DNA of 41,608 nucleotides from an uncultured Lachnospiraceae bacterium (GTDB lineage: Bacteria; Bacillota; Clostridia; Lachnospirales; Lachnospiraceae), in the NCBI GenBank assembly GCA_947624815.1, contig CANQME010000014.1, positions 1 through 41,608 on the forward strand, given 5' to 3'. Below are positions 25,027-41,225 of the stretch, in pieces. The notes under the pieces were generated by a model. That model saw only the letters and a list, made by a program, of their open reading frames with translations. It did no database searches and was not told the DNA's origin. Position numbers and translations under genes: made by a program. Numbering within the stretch: position 1 is the first letter of the stretch; every line of letters starts with the position of its first letter.

Positions 25027-25305
25027 ATGACATTTACATACCCGGCGGTGGTCGTGCCGCACGAGGAAGACGACGGATACCATGTATATTTCCCGGATCT
25101 GGAGAGCTGCGAGGCGGACGGGCCGGATCTGGACGACGCCCTGCAGAACGCCAGGGAGGCGGCCTATGACTGGATCTGGGTGGAGCTGGAGGAGGACGAC
25201 GTGCTGATGCCGGAGGTCTCCCACGCGGAGGACATCCGGCTGCCGGAGGGCGGCTTTTTGCGCAATATCATGGTAACGGTGAAGCTGCTGCCGGATAACG
25301 ACTGA
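25027..25305 (+). CDS. HicB-like (UPF0150) protein, no HicA partner
   Basis: A 92-residue acidic protein with the HicB partial RNase-H-like fold: YPAVVVPHEEDDGYHVYFPDLESC, then DLDDALQNAREAAYDWIW, matching the HicB antitoxin core. Classical HicB antitoxins also carry a C-terminal DNA-binding domain and are paired with a roughly 60-residue HicA mRNA interferase. Here the C-terminus is only a short strand region and no HicA-like gene is found on either side. It is probably one of the solitary HicB-like proteins common in Clostridia, of unknown role. GGGAGG lies 9 bases before the ATG. The 16-base spacing to ppaC suggests cotranscription. Confidence 0.85.
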   Translation: MTFTYPAVVVPHEEDDGYHVYFPDLESCEADGPDLDDALQNAREAAYDWIWVELEEDDVLMPEVSHAEDIRLPEGGFLRNIMVTVKLLPDND

Positions 25306-29887: not shown

Positions 29888-31156
29888 ATGGGCGCTGCCG
29901 GCGATGGCAGAACGGAATATTCAGGCGGCGGGAATCCGTTCCCGGCGCTGAATGACGGTCAGGGTCTGCACGTCCGCATGTTCTCCGCATTCTCCATGGA
30001 ATATAACGGCGAGACCATCCAGATGACCCGCGGCGGCACGAAGGTGGAGCAGGTCTTCGCCCGGCTGCTGATCAGCGGCGACAAGGGCGTCTCCAAACGC
30101 GAGCTGATCGGCAATATCTACGGTCAGGGCCAGGAGGCGGGCGCCGATCTGAACCAGTATGTGAATAATCTGATCTACCGTCTGAAGAAGCGTTTGTCCG
30201 CATGGAAGATGGACGACGCGTCCATTACCCTGGAGAACGGGGTCTGCCGTTTCGAAGCGGGCTTCCCGGTGGTGGTCGACGCGGTCGTGTTCCAGCAGCA
30301 GACGGAGCGCGCGCTGAAGCTGGCCGGTCAGGAGAGGATCTCCCTTCTGGCGGATATGGTGGAGCTTTACAGCGGAGAGTTTCTGGAGGAATTCTGCACC
30401 GAGCTCTGGGTGATCCAGAAGCATCATGAGATGAAGCAGCTGTATTTCAGGGCCTGTGAGGTCCTGGGCGGGGAATACCGGAGGAGCGGCAGCCTGTATC
30501 AGGCGCGGGATATCTACCACCGTGCGGCGCTTCTGTTCCCCTTCGATTCCTGGCAGCTGTCGGAGATCGACTGCCTGATCGCGCTGAAGGATTACGACGG
30601 CGCGTACGCGGTCTATCAGGACACGGAGCGTATCTACGACGAGGATCTGGGCGCCAAGCCCGGAGAGGAATACGCCCGGCGGCTGGCGGTCATCGAGAAG
30701 CAGTCCATGCGTCCCGCCCGCAGGCTGTCGGACATTCTGCCGCCTCTTAAGGAAGAGTATCAAGAGGGCGCGTTCTATTGCTACTATACGGACTTTCTGC
30801 ATTTCTGCCAGATCCTGGCCAGGATCGCGGAGCGGAGCGGCCAGTCCATTTTCCTCCTTCTGTGTACCTGGAGCATGGGCCGCGGGGGAGCGCGGCAGCA
30901 GCCGAATTCCGGTCTGACGGCCCAGCAGATGGATCTGCTGAAGGAGGTCATCGGCCGTGTCTTTCGCCGGGGCGATATTTACACCCGTTACAGCAGCTGC
31001 CAGTACCTGATCCTGCTCACCGGAACCGACCGGGAGAACGGCGCGCAGGCGTTCGACCGTCTCCGCCGGGCGTGGGACCGGCAGGAGGGAGCCAAAGGCG
31101 AGCTCAGCTACAGCATGGATTCCCTGCTGGGCTTCTGGCAGACCGGTCCAAATTGA
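29888..31156 (+). CDS. BTAD (SARP-like) transcriptional regulator with degenerate GGDEF-like tail
   Basis: 422 residues. An N-terminal winged-helix DNA-binding domain of the OmpR/SARP kind spans about 28-125 (recognition part around ELIGNIYGQ and NNLIYRLKKRL). It is followed by a bacterial transcriptional activator domain (BTAD, about 130-270) of paired helices. The C-terminal part (about 295-415) resembles a GGDEF fold: RRGDIYTRYSSCQYLILLTG matches the usual region around GG(D/E)EF in spacing, but the active-site signature is gone. It is thus likely a sensor or dimerisation domain. It has no ATPase or sensor kinase. AAGGAGGTG lies 6 bases before the ATG at 29888. Target genes are inferred to be the small genes and the adhesin downstream. 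Confidence 0.87.
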   Translation: MGAAGDGRTEYSGGGNPFPALNDGQGLHVRMFSAFSMEYNGETIQMTRGGTKVEQVFARLLISGDKGVSKRELIGNIYGQGQEAGADLNQYVNNLIYRLKKRLSAWKMDDASITLENGVCRFEAGFPVVVDAVVFQQQTERALKLAGQERISLLADMVELYSGEFLEEFCTELWVIQKHHEMKQLYFRACEVLGGEYRRSGSLYQARDIYHRAALLFPFDSWQLSEIDCLIALKDYDGAYAVYQDTERIYDEDLGAKPGEEYARRLAVIEKQSMRPARRLSDILPPLKEEYQEGAFYCYYTDFLHFCQILARIAERSGQSIFLLLCTWSMGRGGARQQPNSGLTAQQMDLLKEVIGRVFRRGDIYTRYSSCQYLILLTGTDRENGAQAFDRLRRAWDRQEGAKGELSYSMDSLLGFWQTGPN

Positions 31157-31172
31157 ATATCGTGGTTATCTC

Positions 31173-31205
31173 GGGCGTTCCGCCGTCGGCGGGGCGTCTT
31201 TTTTT
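31173..31205 (+). terminator. Strong terminator after the BTAD regulator
   Basis: A 12-pair stem (31173-31184 with 31188-31199, including G-T pairs), loop GTC, then a run of seven T from 31199 to 31205. It isolates the regulator gene from the small genes and adhesin, so those need their own promoters. Confidence 0.9.
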
Positions 31206-31233
31206 ATCGTTTTTTTCCCTGTTTTTCCCTAAA

Positions 31234-31268
31234 TGATATAGTTCGTGAGATACGCCGCCTGCTATAGT
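31234..31268 (+). promoter_or_regulatory. Activator-type promoter one, with conserved 17-bp element
   Basis: TGATATAGTTCGTGAGA (31234-31250) is followed 29 bases from its first base by TATAGT (31263-31268) as -10. The -35 position reads AGTTCG, far from consensus, so an activator seems needed. Just upstream, TTTTTCCCT occurs twice, 10 bases apart (31212 and 31222). The same element and spacing recur at 31835. Confidence 0.6.
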
Positions 31269-31338
31269 TTCATCATAGGGGTAACCTGCCCATTGGGCGG
31301 GAATCTGCGTAGGGAACCGGGAAAGGAAGTGACGGTCT

Positions 31339-31842
31339 GTGGAATTGTCTGATTATAAAATGCATGCGCCAAACATGGTCTGTATCGGCGTGGACCGGAT
31401 GAACAGCGGCGACTGCCGGGGCCGGATCTGGCACCAGTATTCCGCAGACCCGGTGCTGTTTAAGACGACGGTGGGGCTGATGAAGGAGCTGGACGGTCTG
31501 TACGACCGGTGGAATTTCCCGCAGAGGTCGACGAGCGCGCGTACATTTGACGATCCTGGTCACAGAAATCCGGCGGCAACGAGAGAGAGGGAGAGAAAGG
31601 ATATGGATGAGAGGCGTCTGGCCGGCAAGACCGGAGAGATCGGAACCTTCCTGGTGCGCGTCAAATACCGCCAGAACGCCACATGGCAGGGCGAGATCGT
31701 CTGGGTCGAAGGCAATCAGCGGCAGTATTTCCGAAGCGCTCTCGAGCTGCTGAAGCTGATCGACAGCGCCCTTAAGAAAGAATCTGAGAATCAGGGGGAG
31801 CCTGAGGATAAAAAGCAGGAAAAACGCCCTTCGGTGATATAG
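31339..31842 (+). CDS. Two-module protein of the WQG/FRS type, adhesin-cluster partner
   Basis: A 167-residue protein with no named function. Residues 98-145 hold the module GTFLVRVKYRQNATWQGEI then YFRSALELLKLIDSAL. Residues 20-70 (GRIWHQY, FKTTVGLMKELDGLYDRW, ending STSARTF) align without gaps to it over about 32 residues, sharing G, I, F, L, K and D, so this looks like a divergent duplicate. A linker of charged residues (71-95) joins them and the C-terminus is basic and charged. No signal peptide or membrane segment. The start is GTG at 31339 with AAAGGAAG 9 bases upstream. An internal ATG at 31603 has AGGGAG 8 bases before it, so a shorter product with only the second module may also be made. 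Confidence 0.75.
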   Translation: MELSDYKMHAPNMVCIGVDRMNSGDCRGRIWHQYSADPVLFKTTVGLMKELDGLYDRWNFPQRSTSARTFDDPGHRNPAATRERERKDMDERRLAGKTGEIGTFLVRVKYRQNATWQGEIVWVEGNQRQYFRSALELLKLIDSALKKESENQGEPEDKKQEKRPSVI

Positions 31843-31869
31843 TTTGTGAGAGCCGCGCTTTGTTAAGAT
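31835..31869 (+). promoter_or_regulatory. Activator-type promoter two, with conserved 17-bp element
   Basis: TGATATAGTTTGTGAGA (31835-31851) differs at one base from the element at 31234. It is again followed at 29 bases by a -10-like TAAGAT (31864-31869), with AGTTTG where a -35 should be. The TAG inside it is the stop codon of the upstream gene. It would drive the 66-residue gene and probably the adhesin. Confidence 0.55.
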
Positions 31870-31927
31870 GGATTCAGAACATGAGTCAGCAGCCTTATCC
31901 GCTGCAGTAAGGAGGGAACCAAAGCCT

Positions 31928-32128
31928 ATGGAGGAGAACACAAACGCCAGAACCGGAAGTATCGGAACCTTTATCGTCCGCGTGCGGTGTTGTCAGAACG
32001 CCACATGGCAGGGCGAGGTCATATGGGCCGAGAAGGAGAAGCGGCAGCATTTCCGAAGCGCCCTGGAGCTGTTGAAGATGGTGGATGGGGCCCTGGATGA
32101 GGACCTGCGAGTATTCGAACCCAATTGA
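31928..32128 (+). CDS. Single-module WQG/FRS protein, paralogue of the upstream protein
   Basis: A 66-residue protein consisting of one module: GTFIVRVRCCQNATWQGEV, then an acidic-basic turn, HFRSALELLKMVDGAL and a short acidic tail. It is about 65 percent identical to residues 101-147 of the protein encoded just upstream, so the two arose by duplication. The fold may be two or three beta strands plus a helix, but I know no characterised member. The ATG at 31928 has GGAGGG 11 bases upstream. An earlier in-frame ATG at 31868 overlaps the -10 and is excluded. The giant surface protein gene starts 110 bases after the stop with no T-run terminator between (only a weak hairpin near 32142-32162). 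Confidence 0.8.
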   Translation: MEENTNARTGSIGTFIVRVRCCQNATWQGEVIWAEKEKRQHFRSALELLKMVDGALDEDLRVFEPN

Positions 32129-32237
32129 GAAAAACCGGCGCCGCTTCCCGTTCCGGAGCGGAGGCAGCGCAGAAAGATAAAACAGAAGTCCGGTTGTGAT
32201 AGAACAGAAAGGATAACGAAAGGAAAGGGAGATCACT

Positions 32238-35200
32238 ATGAAGGAGAGGAAAAGGATGTTCAGAGTGTCGAAGAGACAGTCGAGGATTCTGGCGGGCCTG
32301 ATGGCGCTTGTGCTGGTGTTCTCGAATATTGCGGCGAATGTGCAGACCGTGTATGCCGCCAGCCTGGGTGGGGCATTCCCGATCCAGCGCGACGAGGACG
32401 GCAACGTGACCGGCATCGGCAGTTACGAGTCCGGTCAGGACGATTTCGATGAGGAAGAGTTTGACGAGTGGGCAGAAGATGAATCCGAGGAAGAGGAGCT
32501 GCCCTTTGATTTCCATGTCGATATCTGGCCTGAAATGGAGAAGCCGGAGGAAGAGGAGAACGCCGACGTGGAGAATGAGGATGCAGAAGACGAGGCTGCG
32601 GACGATGAAGCCGGAACGGTATGGACCGGGAAATGGCAGCAGTATGAGTATGTGAGCAGCGGTGATTCCGGCGACGAGAGCTGGACCCTGGGTCAGGCGC
32701 TGCTGCTTTCCGATAAGTATAAGGCGCAGTACGGCGAACTGGATCCGAATCTGCCCGGCACCTGGAGCGGCGACAATGACGACGTAATGGAGGTCCGCGC
32801 GGACGGTACTGCCTTCGTAAAGGACGAAGGCTATGTGAACGTGACGTTTGTCTATGAACCCGAAGAGGAAGAAGAGACGGACGAGGAAGATGCAGCTGAT
32901 GAAGAGAAGGCTTCCGATGAGGAAGATGCAGCTGACGAAGAGAAAGCTTCTGATGAGGAAGATGCAGCTGACGAAGAGAAAGCTTCTGATGAGGAAGATG
33001 CAGCTGATGAAGAGAAAGCTTCTGATGAAGAAGATGTGGCTGACGAAGAAAAAGCTCCCGGAGAAGAAGATGTAGCTGACGAAGAGAAGGCTTCCGATGA
33101 AGAAGATGCAGCTGACGAAGAGAAGGCTTCTGATGAAGCAGATAAATCGGCGGCTTCCCAGAATGCGGAAGATGCGGAAGAGGATTCTTCCGATATGAAT
33201 GCAAACACTGAGGAAGGAAACGGGTCGGAAGAGATCGCAGGGGACGAGTCTACCCCAAATGAGGTGATCTCCGGTGAAAAGAAAGATACTACGGTAGAAG
33301 AGGCGGAGGCAAAGGAGTCCGAAAAGGAGAAGTCGACGACAATCGAGAATATCGCATCGGATGAAATCAGTTCGGAAGAGATCGATTCCGAGAATGAACT
33401 GGCGTCGATGAGGAAGACCAAAGTGGCGACTGACGGCAATGCGGAGTGGAACGACGACGCAGAAGATCCGGTAGAGCCTTCGGATGTCGTTGAGGCTACA
33501 AAACCGTCCAAAAAAGACGAAGCGACTGACCCGGCCGAGACCGACGAGTCGGTAGAGGAATCTTCGGAAGAGGAAGAAGAGAAGAAGAACGAATGCCCTC
33601 TCAAGGCTGGCGATGAACTCACCTGGGTTGTACAGGTGAAGTATATTGGGCCAGAGTTGATGGCGAATGCACCAGGGCTTACGTTTGAGGGGAAAAATGG
33701 GAGTGAATTAAAATATGATGGTACAAATCATAAAGCAACCATCACTGGAAGTGGAAAATTGACCGTCAGTGGAACGTTTAATGGCAAGATTGTCATTGAA
33801 AAAGGAAGGGTAGATATCGTCGGGGAGGGAAAAATTGATGCCCTCAATGCCGCGGGTGATAATAGAAGTGCTATTACAATAGAAGGCGGAACAACGACGT
33901 TAAATGGCAATATTACCATTACCGGTGGTGAGGGCACTGTAGCAACTGGTGATGCGGCAGCGCTGGAACCTAGAGGCGAAATCCGCATTGGTGGCGGTGT
34001 TTATGTGGAGAAGGGTACCTTTAATCTGGTAAATGGAACGATTAGCGAGAATACTGCTCAACGTGGTGGTGGTATTTTTGTGAGTAGTGGCCAGAATTTT
34101 GTTATGGAAGGTGGGACTGTTAGCGAGAATCAGACTGTAAGCACTGGTGGTAAATATGCAGGTGAGGGCGGTGGAATCTTCGTCTGGGGCACTGCGACTA
34201 TCTCTGGAGGCAGTATTACAGACAATACATGTAATTCTCAAAATGATCTGGGTGGTGGAGGCTTATATGTTAATAATGGAGGTATAGCCACTCTGATTAA
34301 CGCAAGAATCACAGGCAATACTGCAGATGGTTTTGGTGGTGGTATAGCTGGTTGTTGCCATGGGGAAATGTCGATAGTTGCTATAGATGGTGCTGCATTG
34401 TATGGGAATACTGCAAAGGGCATTAATCATACGGAAGCTAGATATAATACAGATGCAAGTAGAAATACTGCAGAGGTCATTGATGGGTACAAGAAAGCAA
34501 CTAGCGCAGGAATAACGGGAGCAAATTCAGAAGATTTTTATACTGCAGGTTCCTGCATTGTCAGTAATTATATGGCCGGTGGTGGGTCTGCGAAATACAC
34601 AGTAACTAGTCCGACTGATAAAGGAGTAACTCTTAGAGATGATGAGGTAAAAAAATACACTCAGACGGTAGTAGCGCTTAAAGCAAATCCTGATCAAGAA
34701 TCGATAAATAAGGTTGAGTCAGGAGTAGAGATATCAGGAAACCACTCCACTGTCCATGGTGGCGGCATCGGCTGTAATGGTGGACTCTATTTCGGCTCTA
34801 AGAAGAGTCAGACAATTGAGCTTAAGGTGCTGAATCTGGAATTAGAGGCGAAGAAAAGATTAGATGAAAAAGCACCGGGAGAAAATAAATATACTTTTGC
34901 ATTGTCGTATAGTGATGATGAGAACGGATGGGCCAATCCTATAGCAACGGCAACGAACGATGCCAGCGGTAAAATTAAATTTAGTCTTAGTGATTACTGG
35001 AATGATAGTATTGCAAACCGGGTGCATGACAAAAAGATTACGTTCTATTTAAAGGAAATTGCTGATAACCAAAATAGCGATGTAACGTATGACCAATCAG
35101 TATATAAACTGAACGTCACATTAGACGAAGAAATAACAACTGAACAGACAGTTACTCTAGGGCATACAACGACTAGTAATCGTTTTGAGGAAATTACGGT

Positions 35201-38200
35201 AACATATAAGAAACACATATATAAAGAAAAAAGTAAAACCATCGAAAAGGTTAGAGACTGGTATGGAAATGCAATATCAGGTAGTGGAGAGCCTGTTTCA
35301 GGAGATATTACTTTTGAGAACTATACTAAGAAGGTTACGTTTACACCTGTAGTAAAGAAAGAGATTTCTTCTGATGCTGGACTTATTGCTCCCATTAGAG
35401 AGTATACGTTTAATATTGCTTCTGAGGGTGGATGGCCTCTTCCGAACCCGGCTACAGCAACAGTAAAGGGACAAGGAACAGCAGTATTTGGAGAGATCAC
35501 CTATTATCAAACAGGAACGTATACCTATCAGATAACAGAAAACGATCCGAAAGATACTATTAATGAGGCCATTACAAAGGATGACAGTATAATTACTTTA
35601 GTAGTTACGGTTAGCGAAAATGCCAGTGGGGAATTGGTGGCATCGGGTGTGTATACAGGAGGTAAAGAACAGGATAAACCGGATACCTTTATCAATACTT
35701 TTGCGCCTGTGACCACATATGCTCCTCAGGTCAAGAAAGTGTTCGCTGGCGAGCGGATTGAGAACAGCAAAACATTTACTTTTAAGCTGGAACAGAATTT
35801 AGCTAAAGGTAATGAATATGATCCAAAAAATAACGTTGTGATGCCGGAAAATACCGCAGTTGAAGTGACAGGTGTACAACAAGGACCGAAAAGTTTTGAC
35901 GATATTACGTTTAAGAAACCGGGTACGTACTACTTTACAATTACAGAGGATAGCACTAATCCAGTAGATGGATATACTTATGATACGGCTCCTAGGGAAC
36001 TGAAGGTTGAGGTAACATATAATGAGACAGAAGGAAAACTAGTACCGACAGCTACATATACGTGTAACGGTGAGACGGTGACTGATGCGACATTTACGAA
36101 TACGTATACCAGTGAAGATACAACGTATGCTCCAAATGTGCGTAAGGTAGTAACTGGCGATGAGGTGCCGAAGAGAACCTGGCAGACATTTACGTTCGAA
36201 TTGTCTGCTGATGAAGGTAATCTTGAAGGAGCGAAATTGCCCGACAATCGTACACTTACTATTACGGACAATGGCACAGCGGAAGGTGTCAGCGCTAGCT
36301 TCGAAGCGATTACGTTCGAGCAGTCGGGGGTATATACGTTCAAAATAACTGAGAAGCGTGATGTCAGTATACCCGGGTATTCGTATGATGGAAATGATTG
36401 GACTGTGACGGTGGATGTTGGCGATGGAGATAGCAAACTCTACATTAGAAACGTCACTTACAAGAGAGATAACGGGGACTCTGTAGAGGGGGAAGACAAA
36501 GAGGCCAGGTTTGAGAACACGTACGATGTGCAGGATGCCCTTTATGCGCCGAGAGTAAAGAAGATTATCACTGGTGATGATAGAACGAACGATGAATATA
36601 AGAAAACATTTACGTTCAATCTGACGGCAGAGAAAAAGAATCCTGAGGGCGCCGTACTTCCGCAGAACACAACCGTTACGGTAACAGATGCTGGATCAGC
36701 AGCCTTTGCTCCGATTACATTTACAAAGGCTGGGATATATGTGTTCACAATTGACGAGGAGAAGCATTCCGAAAAAGGTTACACGTATGATGACACCATA
36801 TGGACACTTCAGGTTATTGTCAGAGATAAGGAAGTAACCGATGAAAACGGAAATAAGATTAGGCAGCTGGTAGCGGATTGCGATTACACTGCACAAGGGT
36901 ATCCGTCTTCAAAGGAAGAGGCTACATTCACGAATCAATACAAAGTGGAACCGGTTGATTATGCGCCCAAGGTAGAGAAGGCGGTGAGTGCAGAGAACGG
37001 GAAGTCTCCCAATCTAAATACGCAGGAATTTACGTTTAAGCTCAGCGGAGACTCTCAGGACGGTGCGGAACTTCCGAATGAGGCAACTGAGTCAACTGTA
37101 ACTGTGACAGGTACAAATACAAAGACTTTTGGAAAGATACATTTTACCAAAGCAGGAAGTTACCATTTCACGATAGAAGAATTGTCGGATGAGACGAAAA
37201 ATTATCCGGGTTATGTCTATGATGACAATAAGTGGACCCTGGATGTGGAAGTCAAAGACATTGACGGCAAGTTGACAGTGACCAATGTGACTTATGTCCA
37301 AACTGGCGAAGGCGCGGAAGGCAGATCGGAAGGTAAAAGCGAAGAAGAAATAGTAAGCGCGAAGGCAACGTTTACCAATGACTACAATGTTGAGCCGACG
37401 CATTTCCAGCCGGAGGTTGAGAAGCTGTTTACCGGCAATAGTGATCCCAGACCGCAGGATTATATCAAGACATTCAGTTTCACCCTCGCTGGTGAGCAGG
37501 ATGGAGTGACACTTCCTGCAGACTGTACAGCAGAGGTAACGAGCGAAAATGTAAGCAAAAACGGGGAAATGCCGAACAGGGCAATGTTTGATGCGATCGA
37601 GTTCACCAAAGCCGGAACCTACACATTCACGATCACAGAGGACGATTTGAATGAGAACGGCTACCTTGGCTACGGCCATGACGACTCGGAATGGACGCTG
37701 ACAGTAGTGGTGGAGGATGTGGACAGCAAGCTGGAGGTTAAGAGCCATACTTATACGAAGGCTGGTCTTGTAATTCCGAGCATTTATGCGACATTTACCA
37801 ACAGCTACCATGCGCAGCCGACCACATACCAGCCGAAGGTGACGAAGCAGGTCGTCGGAGAGGTTATTCCGGATCGCAAGTACTTCCAGTTCACCCTGGA
37901 GGCGGCTGAGAGTAATCCCGAGGGTGTGAAGTGGGATGAGCATGTAGAGAACGGAGTTGACTCCATCGGCGTCTATGGGCTGCCGGATTATCAGATCTCC
38001 CAGGGCAACTTCTATCCGGTCACTTTTGAGAAGGCTGGGCTGTATATGTTCACCATCCTGGAAGAGGATACCAATGAGATGGGCTATACCTACGACTCCA
38101 GGTTCTGGACGCTGGAAGTAGTTGTGGAGGACAGGGACGGCCAGTTGGAAGTGAAGAGTGCCATCTACTACGTGACTGATGAGAGCGGCCGGATCACAAG

Positions 38201-41200
38201 CTATCCGGACGTGGAGGATTTCAATAAAGTTGGAGACGGCGCGACAGCTCGGTTTGTCAATGAATACAAACCTGCGCCTACGCATTACGCTCCCGAGGTC
38301 ATGAAGCTGATCTACGGCAACGCGATGCCTCCGGAAGACAGAACTTATACGTTTGTTCTTGAACATGGATTCTGGTACCCGAACGGTGTCCTTACCGACG
38401 CCGGAGCGGTGATGCCGGAAGATCCTACCGCTACTGTAGTAGGTGTTGGACGCGGCAAATTCAACGAGATCGAATTCACCAAGGCCGGAACCTATAACTT
38501 CACGGTCAGAGAGAAAGACGAGGGCGGCGTGAACGGCTACCTCTACGATGACACGACATGGAACGTGGAAGTGACCGTGATTGACAACAACGGCCAGCTT
38601 GTGGTTACGAACGTGGCCTACACGAAGCAGGCCGGGAGCAGGACAGAGAACGTAGGGCCGGAGAACAGCGGTGAACCGCAGAAAGACACAAGCCATGTAC
38701 TGTTTGCCTCCTTCTATAATGAGTACAACGTACTCCCGACGGAGACGCAGCTTCATGTCACCAAGTATGTGACTGGTTCTGTGAGACCGGATAACAATGT
38801 AGCGACCTTCAACTTCCGACTGGCGCTGCTTGACGCGACCACAAGGAATGGAGCGACGCTCCCGGAGAATCAGACTGTGACGATCACAGGTCCGGGAAAT
38901 CCGGGAATCCTGGGAACGGCAGACTTTGATCCGATCAAGTTCACCCAGGCCGGTACGTACATCTTCGAGATCGATGAGATGACCGGGTTTGAGACGGATA
39001 CGCAGACGATGCCGGGTTATACCTATGATGGCAGCACCTGGAAGGTAAGCGTAGAGGTCGAGGATCATGACGGAACATTAGTTGTAACGAAAAAAGAGTA
39101 TAACCACCTGGTAAATGGAGAACGGGTTGACTCGTCAGATGTTCCTGCTGAGGAAGGCGCGAGATTTGTCAACGATTACGATGTGGAGTCTGCGAAATAT
39201 GCGCCGAAGGTAAATAAGGAATTCGCCCGCAGCGCTGCCGCGAGACCGACGGAGGAGACATTCACATTTACACTGGAGGCTGCTGAAGATTACGGCGACG
39301 ACATCACATTCAGCGAAACTGCGGCTGCGAAGGAAGTTACAGTCACCGGAGCCGGAATAGCGTCCTTTGACGACATTACGTTCAACGAAGCCGGAACCTA
39401 TGAGTTCATTATCAGTGAGACTGACAGCGGAAAGGCTGGTTATACCTACGATCCGGTGAAGTGGAAACTGACGGTGGAGGTTATCGATACCGGAAGACAG
39501 GCAGAGAACGTTAACAAGAGCCAGCTGCTCGTAAATACGGTTTCCTATGTCCAGATTGATACGGATGAACCGAAGTCTGGCGCGGGAATGGCGACATTTA
39601 CCAATGACTACCAGGCAAAGGAAGGCGGTTATGTACCGCAGGTGGAGAAGAAGCTGACCGGTGCGGACAGACCGACGGAGAAGACCTTCACATTCAGCAT
39701 TGTGGAGAACGGTTACACGCCGCCGGCATATGCACTGGCTCTGGAAAGCGGTCTGGTAATGCCGGAGAATACAGAAGCAACTGTGACTGGCGAGGGAACG
39801 GCATCCTTTGATGAAATCAAATTTACCAATGCCGGAATTTACAGCTTCCTGATCACCGAGAACAAGGGCACAGAAAACGGCTACACTTACGACGAGGCGG
39901 TATGGAACCTGATGGTGACGGTGGAAGATGTAGCGGGTCAGCTGACAGCGATGGAAGCCGTATACGAGAGCAATGGAATAGAAGCGGATAAGGCCACATT
40001 TACCAACGATTATCAGGTGAAGACGGCGAAATATGCTCCGCAGGTCAAGAAGACCATTCTGGGCAACCCGCTAGAGGAAGAGCAGTTCAACTTCACCCTG
40101 GAAAGCGATGAGGGAAATGATACGGAAGGTTTCGAATTTGCAGAAGGCGACAGCGGACGTCATGTATCAGTGAACGGAGCAGGAACCGGAAGCTTCGGCG
40201 GAATCACCTTCAAGAAGGCCGGAACCTACACCTTCAAGGTCAAAGAGACCAGCAGCAACAGCCCGTTCTGGGTAGATGACGACAGGACCTGGACAGTGAC
40301 AGTGGTAGTTGAGGATAAGGACGGACAGCTGGTGGTTACGAGCCACAGCTACGTGCGCGACGGCGAGGATTCTGTAACCTCGGATACCGAGGCGGAATTT
40401 GAGAATGAGTACCATGGCCCCGGCGATCTGTCGATCGAAAAGAGCGTCAGCGGTGATCGCGGCGAGCTGTCGAGAGCATTTAATTTCACGGTGACGCTGA
40501 CGAACCCGCAGGGACAGCCGCTTAAGGGAACCTATGAGTATACCGGCAGCAGTTCCGTGGCGGATGTGACGGCGCCTGCGGACGGCACGGTGACCAATGG
40601 CGTCCTGCATATCACGCTGGCTCATGGCCAGAGGGTTACGATTACGGGAATTCCTTCCGACACGAAGTATACGGTGACGGAGGCTGAGGCAGACGCTGAC
40701 GGATACACGACGAGTGTGGAGATCAACGGAGCCGGTCAGGACAGCGATACGGCGTCCGGAGAGATCGTACAGAACACCGAGACATTAGTAGAGTACCTGA
40801 ACTATCGTCAGAGCACACCGGAGAATCCGACAGAGCCGAATCCGGAGAACCCGACGGAGCCGAGTCCGGAGAATCCGACGGAGCCGAGTCCGGAGAATCC
40901 GGGAGGCAATACGCCTGGCAATCCGGGAAATACAACGCCTGGCAGACCTGGGAACACTACGCCTGACAGGCCGGGACTGAGCATTCCGGAAGCGCCTGTT
41001 CCGAGGACCGCGGGTATACCGGATATCGTAACGATCTCTGATGAGCCGACGCCGCTGGCCAACCTTGAGAACATCGAGGATGAGGATGTCCCGCTGGCCT
41101 TCCTGGCCCCGATGACAGGCGATAACAAGCCGGTCGGCGCGGTAGCCCTCTTCGGACTGGTTGCTCTGGGCATGATGGGAGCGTTTGGAATCCTTGCTAT

Positions 41201-41225
41201 GAAGAAGGATGAGGAAGACATGTAA
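32238..41225 (+). CDS. Giant cell-surface adhesin/pilin-like protein with about 13 isopeptide-type domains
   Basis: 2995 residues. A signal peptide (1-40, cleavage after VYA) is followed by an acidic Glu/Asp/Ser region to about 455 with a 12-residue repeat. A beta-helix-like part (about 490-850) is rich in GGGIFV-type turns. Then come about 13 domains of the FctA/Spy0128 type, starting near 862, 1032, 1161, 1297, 1436, 1575, 1723, 1864, 2017, 2170, 2321, 2465 and 2599. Each typically opens with YAPxVxK (the Lys), has an ITE-like Glu and ends in FTNxY (the Asn), the triad for intramolecular Lys-Asn bonds. A DUF7601/Cna-B-like domain (2731-2858), a Pro-rich wall spacer, LAPMTGD (2956-2962), a membrane helix and KKDEEDM follow. 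AAAGGGAG lies 6 bases before the ATG. No sortase is encoded here. Confidence 0.9.
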   Translation: MKERKRMFRVSKRQSRILAGLMALVLVFSNIAANVQTVYAASLGGAFPIQRDEDGNVTGIGSYESGQDDFDEEEFDEWAEDESEEEELPFDFHVDIWPEMEKPEEEENADVENEDAEDEAADDEAGTVWTGKWQQYEYVSSGDSGDESWTLGQALLLSDKYKAQYGELDPNLPGTWSGDNDDVMEVRADGTAFVKDEGYVNVTFVYEPEEEEETDEEDAADEEKASDEEDAADEEKASDEEDAADEEKASDEEDAADEEKASDEEDVADEEKAPGEEDVADEEKASDEEDAADEEKASDEADKSAASQNAEDAEEDSSDMNANTEEGNGSEEIAGDESTPNEVISGEKKDTTVEEAEAKESEKEKSTTIENIASDEISSEEIDSENELASMRKTKVATDGNAEWNDDAEDPVEPSDVVEATKPSKKDEATDPAETDESVEESSEEEEEKKNECPLKAGDELTWVVQVKYIGPELMANAPGLTFEGKNGSELKYDGTNHKATITGSGKLTVSGTFNGKIVIEKGRVDIVGEGKIDALNAAGDNRSAITIEGGTTTLNGNITITGGEGTVATGDAAALEPRGEIRIGGGVYVEKGTFNLVNGTISENTAQRGGGIFVSSGQNFVMEGGTVSENQTVSTGGKYAGEGGGIFVWGTATISGGSITDNTCNSQNDLGGGGLYVNNGGIATLINARITGNTADGFGGGIAGCCHGEMSIVAIDGAALYGNTAKGINHTEARYNTDASRNTAEVIDGYKKATSAGITGANSEDFYTAGSCIVSNYMAGGGSAKYTVTSPTDKGVTLRDDEVKKYTQTVVALKANPDQESINKVESGVEISGNHSTVHGGGIGCNGGLYFGSKKSQTIELKVLNLELEAKKRLDEKAPGENKYTFALSYSDDENGWANPIATATNDASGKIKFSLSDYWNDSIANRVHDKKITFYLKEIADNQNSDVTYDQSVYKLNVTLDEEITTEQTVTLGHTTTSNRFEEITVTYKKHIYKEKSKTIEKVRDWYGNAISGSGEPVSGDITFENYTKKVTFTPVVKKEISSDAGLIAPIREYTFNIASEGGWPLPNPATATVKGQGTAVFGEITYYQTGTYTYQITENDPKDTINEAITKDDSIITLVVTVSENASGELVASGVYTGGKEQDKPDTFINTFAPVTTYAPQVKKVFAGERIENSKTFTFKLEQNLAKGNEYDPKNNVVMPENTAVEVTGVQQGPKSFDDITFKKPGTYYFTITEDSTNPVDGYTYDTAPRELKVEVTYNETEGKLVPTATYTCNGETVTDATFTNTYTSEDTTYAPNVRKVVTGDEVPKRTWQTFTFELSADEGNLEGAKLPDNRTLTITDNGTAEGVSASFEAITFEQSGVYTFKITEKRDVSIPGYSYDGNDWTVTVDVGDGDSKLYIRNVTYKRDNGDSVEGEDKEARFENTYDVQDALYAPRVKKIITGDDRTNDEYKKTFTFNLTAEKKNPEGAVLPQNTTVTVTDAGSAAFAPITFTKAGIYVFTIDEEKHSEKGYTYDDTIWTLQVIVRDKEVTDENGNKIRQLVADCDYTAQGYPSSKEEATFTNQYKVEPVDYAPKVEKAVSAENGKSPNLNTQEFTFKLSGDSQDGAELPNEATESTVTVTGTNTKTFGKIHFTKAGSYHFTIEELSDETKNYPGYVYDDNKWTLDVEVKDIDGKLTVTNVTYVQTGEGAEGRSEGKSEEEIVSAKATFTNDYNVEPTHFQPEVEKLFTGNSDPRPQDYIKTFSFTLAGEQDGVTLPADCTAEVTSENVSKNGEMPNRAMFDAIEFTKAGTYTFTITEDDLNENGYLGYGHDDSEWTLTVVVEDVDSKLEVKSHTYTKAGLVIPSIYATFTNSYHAQPTTYQPKVTKQVVGEVIPDRKYFQFTLEAAESNPEGVKWDEHVENGVDSIGVYGLPDYQISQGNFYPVTFEKAGLYMFTILEEDTNEMGYTYDSRFWTLEVVVEDRDGQLEVKSAIYYVTDESGRITSYPDVEDFNKVGDGATARFVNEYKPAPTHYAPEVMKLIYGNAMPPEDRTYTFVLEHGFWYPNGVLTDAGAVMPEDPTATVVGVGRGKFNEIEFTKAGTYNFTVREKDEGGVNGYLYDDTTWNVEVTVIDNNGQLVVTNVAYTKQAGSRTENVGPENSGEPQKDTSHVLFASFYNEYNVLPTETQLHVTKYVTGSVRPDNNVATFNFRLALLDATTRNGATLPENQTVTITGPGNPGILGTADFDPIKFTQAGTYIFEIDEMTGFETDTQTMPGYTYDGSTWKVSVEVEDHDGTLVVTKKEYNHLVNGERVDSSDVPAEEGARFVNDYDVESAKYAPKVNKEFARSAAARPTEETFTFTLEAAEDYGDDITFSETAAAKEVTVTGAGIASFDDITFNEAGTYEFIISETDSGKAGYTYDPVKWKLTVEVIDTGRQAENVNKSQLLVNTVSYVQIDTDEPKSGAGMATFTNDYQAKEGGYVPQVEKKLTGADRPTEKTFTFSIVENGYTPPAYALALESGLVMPENTEATVTGEGTASFDEIKFTNAGIYSFLITENKGTENGYTYDEAVWNLMVTVEDVAGQLTAMEAVYESNGIEADKATFTNDYQVKTAKYAPQVKKTILGNPLEEEQFNFTLESDEGNDTEGFEFAEGDSGRHVSVNGAGTGSFGGITFKKAGTYTFKVKETSSNSPFWVDDDRTWTVTVVVEDKDGQLVVTSHSYVRDGEDSVTSDTEAEFENEYHGPGDLSIEKSVSGDRGELSRAFNFTVTLTNPQGQPLKGTYEYTGSSSVADVTAPADGTVTNGVLHITLAHGQRVTITGIPSDTKYTVTEAEADADGYTTSVEINGAGQDSDTASGEIVQNTETLVEYLNYRQSTPENPTEPNPENPTEPSPENPTEPSPENPGGNTPGNPGNTTPGRPGNTTPDRPGLSIPEAPVPRTAGIPDIVTISDEPTPLANLENIEDEDVPLAFLAPMTGDNKPVGAVALFGLVALGMMGAFGILAMKKDEEDM
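32880..33131 (+). repeat. 36-bp in-frame tandem repeat, seven copies
   Basis: Seven direct copies encode DEEDAADEEKAS with small changes (A to V, S to P, D to G in copies 5 and 6), at residues 215-298 of the adhesin. Exact multiples of three keep the frame, so copy number can vary by slippage without breaking the gene. Confidence 0.95.
40818..40901 (+). repeat. 24-bp in-frame repeat encoding a Pro-rich wall spacer
   Basis: Three and a half copies of a 24-bp unit encode PENPTEP followed by N or S. They are followed by a Pro/Gly/Asn/Thr-rich stretch of the kind that spans peptidoglycan next to a sorting signal. Confidence 0.85.

Follow-up and report, generated by a model that had tools for sequence, protein, structure and literature searches.

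Positions 29888 to 41225 of a 41,608-nt contig from an uncultured Lachnospiraceae bacterium (CANQME010000014.1, assembly GCA_947624815.1; the whole stretch is referred to below as the window) probably form a regulatory cassette for a cell-surface structure. In this cassette, a regulator resembling the Streptomyces antibiotic regulatory proteins (SARPs) would act through tandem promoter repeats on two genes for small proteins of a family named W here and on the large surface protein gene that follows them. The list of open reading frames (ORFs) places four genes on the plus strand, namely, the regulator (422 amino acids [aa], ATG start, 29888..31156), W-long (167 aa, GTG start, 31339..31842), W-short (66 aa, 31928..32128), and a giant surface protein (2995 aa, 32238..41225). 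A preliminary description of this DNA had recognized a regulator gene closed by a strong terminator, two small genes with a common module and matched promoter-like elements, and an 8,988-bp surface protein gene, all on one strand, and had suggested that similar small proteins lie near large surface proteins in other Lachnospiraceae. The gene calls and the promoter comparison bear out the first part, and recurrence of the cassette is supported by the co-occurrence and linkage of W and the regulator.

W is a small-protein family found in more than one class

W-long and W-short share 59% identity over 68 aa (E = 4.7e-22). The common module comprises about 50 residues with an invariant F, WQG, F-x-S, and E in a 31-row alignment (A1). 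This WQG/FRS module corresponds to residues 102 to 152 of W-long, and a divergent copy is present at residues 13 to 58 (hhalign probability of 80.7 and E = 1.3e-5 over 42 columns). AlphaFold predicts two beta-beta-beta-alpha units for W-long (predicted local distance difference test [pLDDT] of 83.2, predicted template modeling score [pTM] of 0.74) and one for W-short (pLDDT of 78.6, pTM of 0.57), with strands at residues 15 to 23, 26 to 33, and 38 to 42 and a helix at residues 45 to 61. The two window proteins have no Pfam or NCBIfam match at E <= 1 and a single weak PHROG match (E = 0.055), and a comparison of 45 W-long members with Pfam gave only scattered weak matches, of which the commonest, Rdx, occurred in 4 of the 45. 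W is a real protein family without an informative match in Pfam, NCBIfam, or PHROGs.

The W profile had matches in 72 of 397 genomes from the window's family, in 14 of 146 from an order sample, and in 11 of 16 from a genus sample. In a phylum sample, 35 of 398 genomes were positive, and 33 of these were tagged as sharing the phylum only, that is, as belonging to another class. From a scan of named genomes, the best 80 of 117 W relatives were retained (79 distinct loci), which by title are mostly uncultured Lachnospiraceae. Cultured relatives with a regulator locus include Blautia parvula (L097) and Diplocloster agilis (L065). Another genome set, outside that scan, contained 154 W ORFs, of which 83 were long, 10 had two modules, and 61 were short or of other kinds. 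No 19-residue hydrophobic window was detected in any of 244 W ORFs (single-module ORFs of up to 240 aa, with guessed starts, out of 259), and since they lack hydrophobic segments, W proteins are likely to be cytosolic.

For the short gene of the window, an 86-aa reading from the ATG at 31868 was rejected, as this start falls inside the gene's own promoter, so that the 66-aa frame from the ATG at 31928 is the likely W-short gene. At one locus (L135), a pair of equally sized W genes is arranged head to head within an apparent inverted duplication of their flanks, which is possibly an effect of assembly or recombination.

W occurs together with the regulator

A clear link emerges between the presence of W and that of the regulator. 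Both were searched in 397 family genomes, taken as the same draw, with a cutoff of E <= 1e-80 for the regulator. It was present in 69 of the 72 W-positive genomes and in 24 of the 325 W-negative ones (Fisher P = 2.3e-52, a value that is overstated because the genomes are related). The three W-positive exceptions (G037, G340, and G382) have regulator matches weaker than the cutoff. W thus rarely occurs without the regulator, and the regulator often occurs without W. A search for W at 20 regulator loci, from 20 of the 24 W-negative, regulator-positive genomes, was negative (best E = 0.063); some of these loci lie beside genes of at least 1500 aa (L241, L248, and L250), genes matching pilin profiles (L251 and L253), or a Maf gene (L242).

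The link extends to gene order. In 121 loci (120 fetched regions and the window) holding 129 W clusters, 61 clusters had a regulator within 3 kb, 55 of them on the same strand, and in the named-genome set the regulator was present in 62 of the 80 sequences (the 79 loci, from the best 80 of 117 relatives, and the window). As a later check, one locus was read in each of 20 of the 33 other-class genomes. In 15 of these loci, W is preceded on its own strand by a regulator, separated from it by no more than two ORFs; of the remaining five, three had W close to where the contig begins or to a run of N, one had a regulator on the opposite strand two ORFs away, and one had none in view.

Many W gene promoters resemble SARP operators in layout

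The two W genes of the window are preceded by matching elements. GATATAGTTYGTGAGA has two exact matches in the window, at 31235-31250 and 31836-31851, and in each case the TAnnnT hexamer within a TGnTAnnnT box begins 28 nt after the element does (at 31263 for the copy at 31235 and at 31864 for that at 31836). With three mismatches allowed, shuffled sequences had a mean of 0.38 matches, and 4 of 100 shuffles had at least two. The first candidate operator-promoter (31235..31268, plus strand) reads GATATAG-N5-GAGATAC, with a 12-bp period, followed by the extended -10 box TGCTATAGT at 31260-31268; it scores 6 of 7 at lag 12 (frame TGATATA/TGAGATA). The second (31836..31869, plus strand) reads GATATAG-N5-GAGAGCC, followed by TGTTAAGAT at 31861-31869. 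A generic sigma-70 scan of the window listed neither of these promoters. Operator 1 is conserved in the same-genus locus L120 and before the giant gene of L281/L298.

This arrangement was then scored in the 220 nt upstream of each gene as a TGnTAnnnT box with a 7-nt repeat (at least 6 of 7 matching) directly before it. Among 71 W genes that have a box and lie near a regulator, the repeat was found at lag 12 in 34 and at lag 11 in 13, and the other lags (7 to 10 and 13 to 18) accounted for 0 or 1 each, save for 4 at lag 14. For 34 W genes without a near regulator, the counts were 10 at lag 12, 2 at lag 11, and 0 to 2 at other lags, and for 454 control genes, they were 19 and 25, with 1.1 to 3.3% at each other lag. 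The controls include large genes that come from the same loci and themselves bear the repeat (e.g., in L130, L175, L190, and L222), which makes the comparison conservative. In the other genome set alone, lags 11 and 12 were found in 29 of 59 W genes and 24 of 319 controls of 150 to 999 aa (Fisher P = 2.6e-13), and lags 8 and 9 in 3 of 59 and 12 of 319, respectively. Among the 112 genes of at least 1000 aa, 19 had a box, 8 of these with the repeat at lag 11 and 2 at lag 12. The heptamer varies from locus to locus (TGTAACG, GAGATAA, GTGCCAG, TAACAGC, and others), which would be expected with a separate recognition word for each regulator.

SARP regulators are familiar from Streptomyces antibiotic clusters. 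Passages of PMC10972967 and PMC5930380 describe their sites as heptameric direct repeats with spacers of at least 4 nt, classically in 11-bp units and mostly overlapping the -35 region. Judged by sequence, many W promoters carry 7-nt direct repeats 11 to 12 bp apart directly upstream of a predicted extended -10 box, which is the layout of a SARP operator and is new here.

The regulator is SARP-like with a degenerate GGDEF-like domain

The window regulator matches BTAD (PF03704, E = 4e-8), the only domain detected when it is analyzed alone; a winged helix-turn-helix (wHTH) and a GGDEF-like domain were placed by alignment. In a 38-member alignment of the regulator family (E <= 0.1), BTAD was found in all 38, Trans_reg_C in 33, and GGDEF (PF00990) in 29. 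The predicted architecture is an N-terminal wHTH, BTAD, and a C-terminal degenerate GGDEF-like domain. The latter lacks the catalytic GG[DE]EF motif, for which the family consensus has YSxxQ and the window regulator YSSCQ (in the pattern RRGD...YSSCQ). In a comparison of the regulator profile with PDB sequences, engineered tetratricopeptide repeat proteins ranked first and AfsR next (8hvr, E = 2.7e-20), the AfsR match spanning profile positions 7 to 260.

With the Streptomyces SARP activators AfsR, ActII-ORF4, and PimR, the system shares the combination of wHTH and BTAD as well as, in its candidate operators, tandem 7-nt direct repeats with a period of about 11 bp close to the -10 box. It differs from them in the C-terminal degenerate GGDEF-like domain, in the pairing with W, and in that a 12-bp period is commoner than 11 bp at W promoters. 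Its neighbors are surface-fiber genes and not antibiotic clusters. The role in antibiotic biosynthesis by which SARPs have historically been recognized is not seen here, where the identified neighbors are surface, signal-peptidase, sortase, or Maf genes. The window regulator is therefore described as working like a SARP and is not classed as one, since the name has historically meant antibiotic control.

Two further proteins related to this family were seen. In L188 (9881-11719, minus strand), a regulator and a W-long share one 612-aa frame, the linker of which resembles an intergenic stretch more than part of a true fusion. In L172 (15720-17771, plus strand), a 683-aa protein that by eye comprises receiver, HD-GYP, and GGDEF domains has a C terminus matching the C-terminal domain of the regulator family (E = 1e-25).

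The surface cargo is exchangeable

Genes of surface type are found mainly downstream of W. Proteins of at least 1000 aa were encoded downstream of 53 W clusters and upstream of 22, and the corresponding numbers were 27 and 11 for anchor-like proteins, 20 and 11 for signal peptidases, and 11 and 6 for sortases. When the count was limited to the 108 clusters followed by at least 4 kb of sequence, 78 were accompanied by a regulator or by a gene for a large protein, an anchor-like protein, or a signal peptidase. Representative neighbors are a backbone pilin (GramPos_pilinBB, SpaA, LPXTG anchor), a sortase, an S26 signal peptidase, and a protein of 1522 aa in which SpaA and PA14 domains were identified; others are M73-type proteins (L189), sortases (L190 and L169), and a transglutaminase with T2SS-F (L179). 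The pilin, sortase, and S26 genes make several regulator-W loci similar to Gram-positive sortase-pilus loci. L189, in which W adjoins genes for an S26 signal peptidase and for M73-type proteins, is similar to SipW/camelysin (Peptidase_M73) loci, from which it differs in having W at its head; no regulator is present on its 5.8-kb contig. At seven named loci, W is followed by a Maf gene; a regulator is present at six of these (L044, L050, L064, L071, L076, and L079) and absent from one (L089), and no large or anchor-like gene was found on that strand among the neighbors shown. The cargo is exchangeable and sometimes absent, including giant LPxTG-like adhesins, sortase pili, SipW/camelysin-type loci, T2SS-F loci, or none. 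A giant isopeptide adhesin, which the preliminary description had taken to be a constant part of the cassette, is therefore only one of several forms. Tyrosine integrase genes lie near or beside W at L103, L124, L128, L133, and L209 (local HMM; for the cluster member L109, by Pfam), which hints at mobility or site-specific rearrangement.

The giant protein of the window (8,988 bp, ATG start) comprises, in order, a signal peptide (by eye), an acidic stretch, a repetitive beta-helix-like region (by eye), an FctA array, DUF7601, a proline-rich stalk, and a putative sorting signal. Pfam identified 13 FctA stretches (PF12892, 7e-180) and DUF7601, and phmmer with one FctA repeat as the query found 12 repeats. 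The Spy0128/FctA-type array (35340..40412, plus strand) contains matches to the Lys (11), Glu (12), and Asn (11) motifs, so that fold profile and motifs both agree with domains of the FctA/Spy0128 isopeptide type. At the C terminus, a sorting-signal-like APMTG (41106..41120, plus strand) is followed by a hydrophobic stretch and a charged tail; NF033073 (LPXTG_double) scores 24.3 bits there, below its cutoff of 48. The FctA domains with Lys-Glu-Asn motifs are shared with Gram-positive sortase-pilus loci, whereas the window has a single giant polydomain protein, a variant APMTG signal, and no adjoining sortase gene; two sortase matches were found in its genome, neither beside the giant gene.

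The hairpin that follows the regulator gene (31173..31199, plus strand) resembles an intrinsic terminator, with a 12-pair stem and a T-run. Across the region, terminator-like matches are not in excess (8 versus 10.2 in shuffles), and the other seven have stems of only 5 to 6 pairs. Among metabolic genes of the window, an ORF for a HicB-like antitoxin was noted at 25027-25305 (plus strand; PF15919, E = 1.7e-8).

Same-genus loci provide natural variants

In genome G114, the locus L120 carries both window elements, at W-long and at W-short, and has no regulator on the 17 kb read. As this genome has four regulator matches elsewhere, action of a regulator in trans on L120 is plausible. The second variant is that of G543 (L298, contig C7). 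Here, the ORF for the relative of the regulator is split by a frame change in the assembly, with 50% identity in one frame and 59% in the other. Behind it stands AATATAGTTTTTGAGAGAGTTGCTTTGCTATAGT, with the 28-nt spacing kept, and then directly a gene for a 4326-aa protein with an IPKTG-type end. No FctA domain was found in this protein, and no W on the 18.5 kb read. Three W genes are present elsewhere in this genome, and W therefore need not be encoded in the operon, which does not imply that it is dispensable to the cell.

W also lies directly upstream of a large gene at L117, L118, L121, L122, and L124 to L129. The same-genus loci without a regulator mostly have other promoter regions and small ribbon-helix-helix (RHH)-like or helix-turn-helix-like genes nearby (by eye), so that W can stand under other regulators. 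RHH-like genes (CopG-type, by eye) adjoin W and the giant gene at L117, L118, and L125, in the window's own genome and G114, so that cargo of this kind may also be served by a different regulator.

Discussion

The data are consistent with the following sequence of events. The SARP-like activator would bind the tandem 7-nt repeats at the -35 position, directly upstream of the extended -10 box, and recruit RNA polymerase to the W genes; polymerase reading on past these genes from the same start points would then also transcribe the giant adhesin gene. The GGDEF-like domain would probably provide the signal input. The W proteins, as predicted cytosolic single or double beta-beta-beta-alpha units, would be made first in the operon. 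Activation of the surface operon by the regulator appears well supported on sequence grounds. Control of the small-protein and adhesin genes by the regulator, as the preliminary description had suggested, is probable in view of the co-occurrence, the linkage, the tandem-repeat operators, and the congener locus.

Several observations weigh against this model. No regulator was found within 3 kb of 68 of the 129 W clusters, some of them on cut contigs. Several same-genus loci with W and a giant gene (L117, L118, L119, and L125) have, by eye, neither regulator nor repeats. The preliminary description had held that small-protein homologs scattered away from regulator and surface genes would speak against the cassette; such scatter is not seen overall, but 30 of the 108 clusters have no regulator within 3 kb and no detected large, anchor-like, or signal-peptidase gene downstream. 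As to the operator, the second copy in the window fails the 6-of-7 repeat rule, its second repeat being degenerate (about 4 of 7 by eye) with the first heptamer and the spacing kept, and two of the three window rows in the repeat scoring rest on a wrong anchor. The internal control lags 14 and 15 are also raised (8 of 59 W genes versus 7 of 319 controls), with a smaller excess. An operator under the strict rule was detected at only 3 of the 20 other-class loci and in just 17 of the 55 genomes with W near a regulator, the latter compared with 1.65 expected from matched control genes and a maximum of 7 in 2000 draws. Finally, OmpR/PhoB-type regulators also bind similar direct repeats of about 11 bp.

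The function of W is a separate question. Its likeliest role, proposed here tentatively, is that of a partner that tunes the regulator, either as a feedback inhibitor or as a coactivator. The asymmetric association of W with the regulator and its position at the head of the operon make a modulating role likelier than that of an essential helper. Of the earlier proposal that the small proteins assist regulation, secretion, or assembly, regulation is retained in this form, whereas help in secretion or assembly is not supported as written.

Alternatively, W may be a dedicated posttranscriptional helper of the surface protein encoded just downstream, acting in translation control or as a pre-export chaperone, which is considered unlikely. 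Such a role would agree with the same-genus loci in which W directly precedes a large gene even without a near regulator (L117, L118, and L124 to L129), with the lack of hydrophobic segments, and with several short W proteins that end in ...GGSHEK, where the ribosome site of the next gene apparently overlaps (by eye). However, the six loci with regulator, W, and Maf have no large or anchor-like gene to be helped on the strand shown, and at the genome level W depends on the regulator. L298, with element and giant gene but no W, also argues against a helper, if weakly, as the three other W proteins of G543 could act in trans.

A further reading, considered improbable, assigns the repeats to an OmpR/PhoB-type response regulator from another place in the genome and gives the BTAD protein a different regulon. 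Apart from the similar repeats used by that class, repeats are found in 10 of 25 W genes without a near regulator, many of which lie on cut contigs or have a regulator elsewhere in the genome, and a passage of PMC10972967 describes the AfsR site at afsS as common to PhoP. Against this stand the co-occurrence and adjacency of the BTAD regulator and W, and the G543 locus, which keeps the element beside a regulator relative even though the giant protein differs and W is missing there. Least probable of all is that W is a HicB-like (partial RNase H/double-stranded RNA-binding-like) domain with a toxin-antitoxin or nucleic acid-binding role. The resemblance to the HicB antitoxin N-terminal domain is one of beta-beta-beta-alpha fold only (best structural neighbor, 2yzt), with no detectable sequence relation.

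SARP layouts and FctA adhesins are already known kinds. The searches made, which covered open-licence papers, turned up no case in which a dead-GGDEF regulator, surface-fiber targets in Clostridia, and the W family are combined. The present work defines an unnamed family and ties it to a regulator across a phylum, and the congener locus, where the element and a giant gene stand without an adjoining W, offers a useful natural variant. Returning to W as a regulator partner, it is conceivable, though speculative, that W represents a new class of small partners across the phylum that dock on dead-GGDEF SARP-like activators, forming a portable unit of sensor, activator, and feedback to which Clostridia attach extracellular structures that are unrelated to one another, namely, giant isopeptide adhesins, sortase pili, SipW-type fibers, and T2SS-F loci. 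If the cassette model is correct, the SARP operator layout would provide a rule, readable from sequence, for which adhesins and pili hard-to-culture gut Clostridia switch on and by which regulator. The association of W and regulator, often next to surface-fiber genes, suggests that gut bacteria turn on surface structures in a manner not described before.

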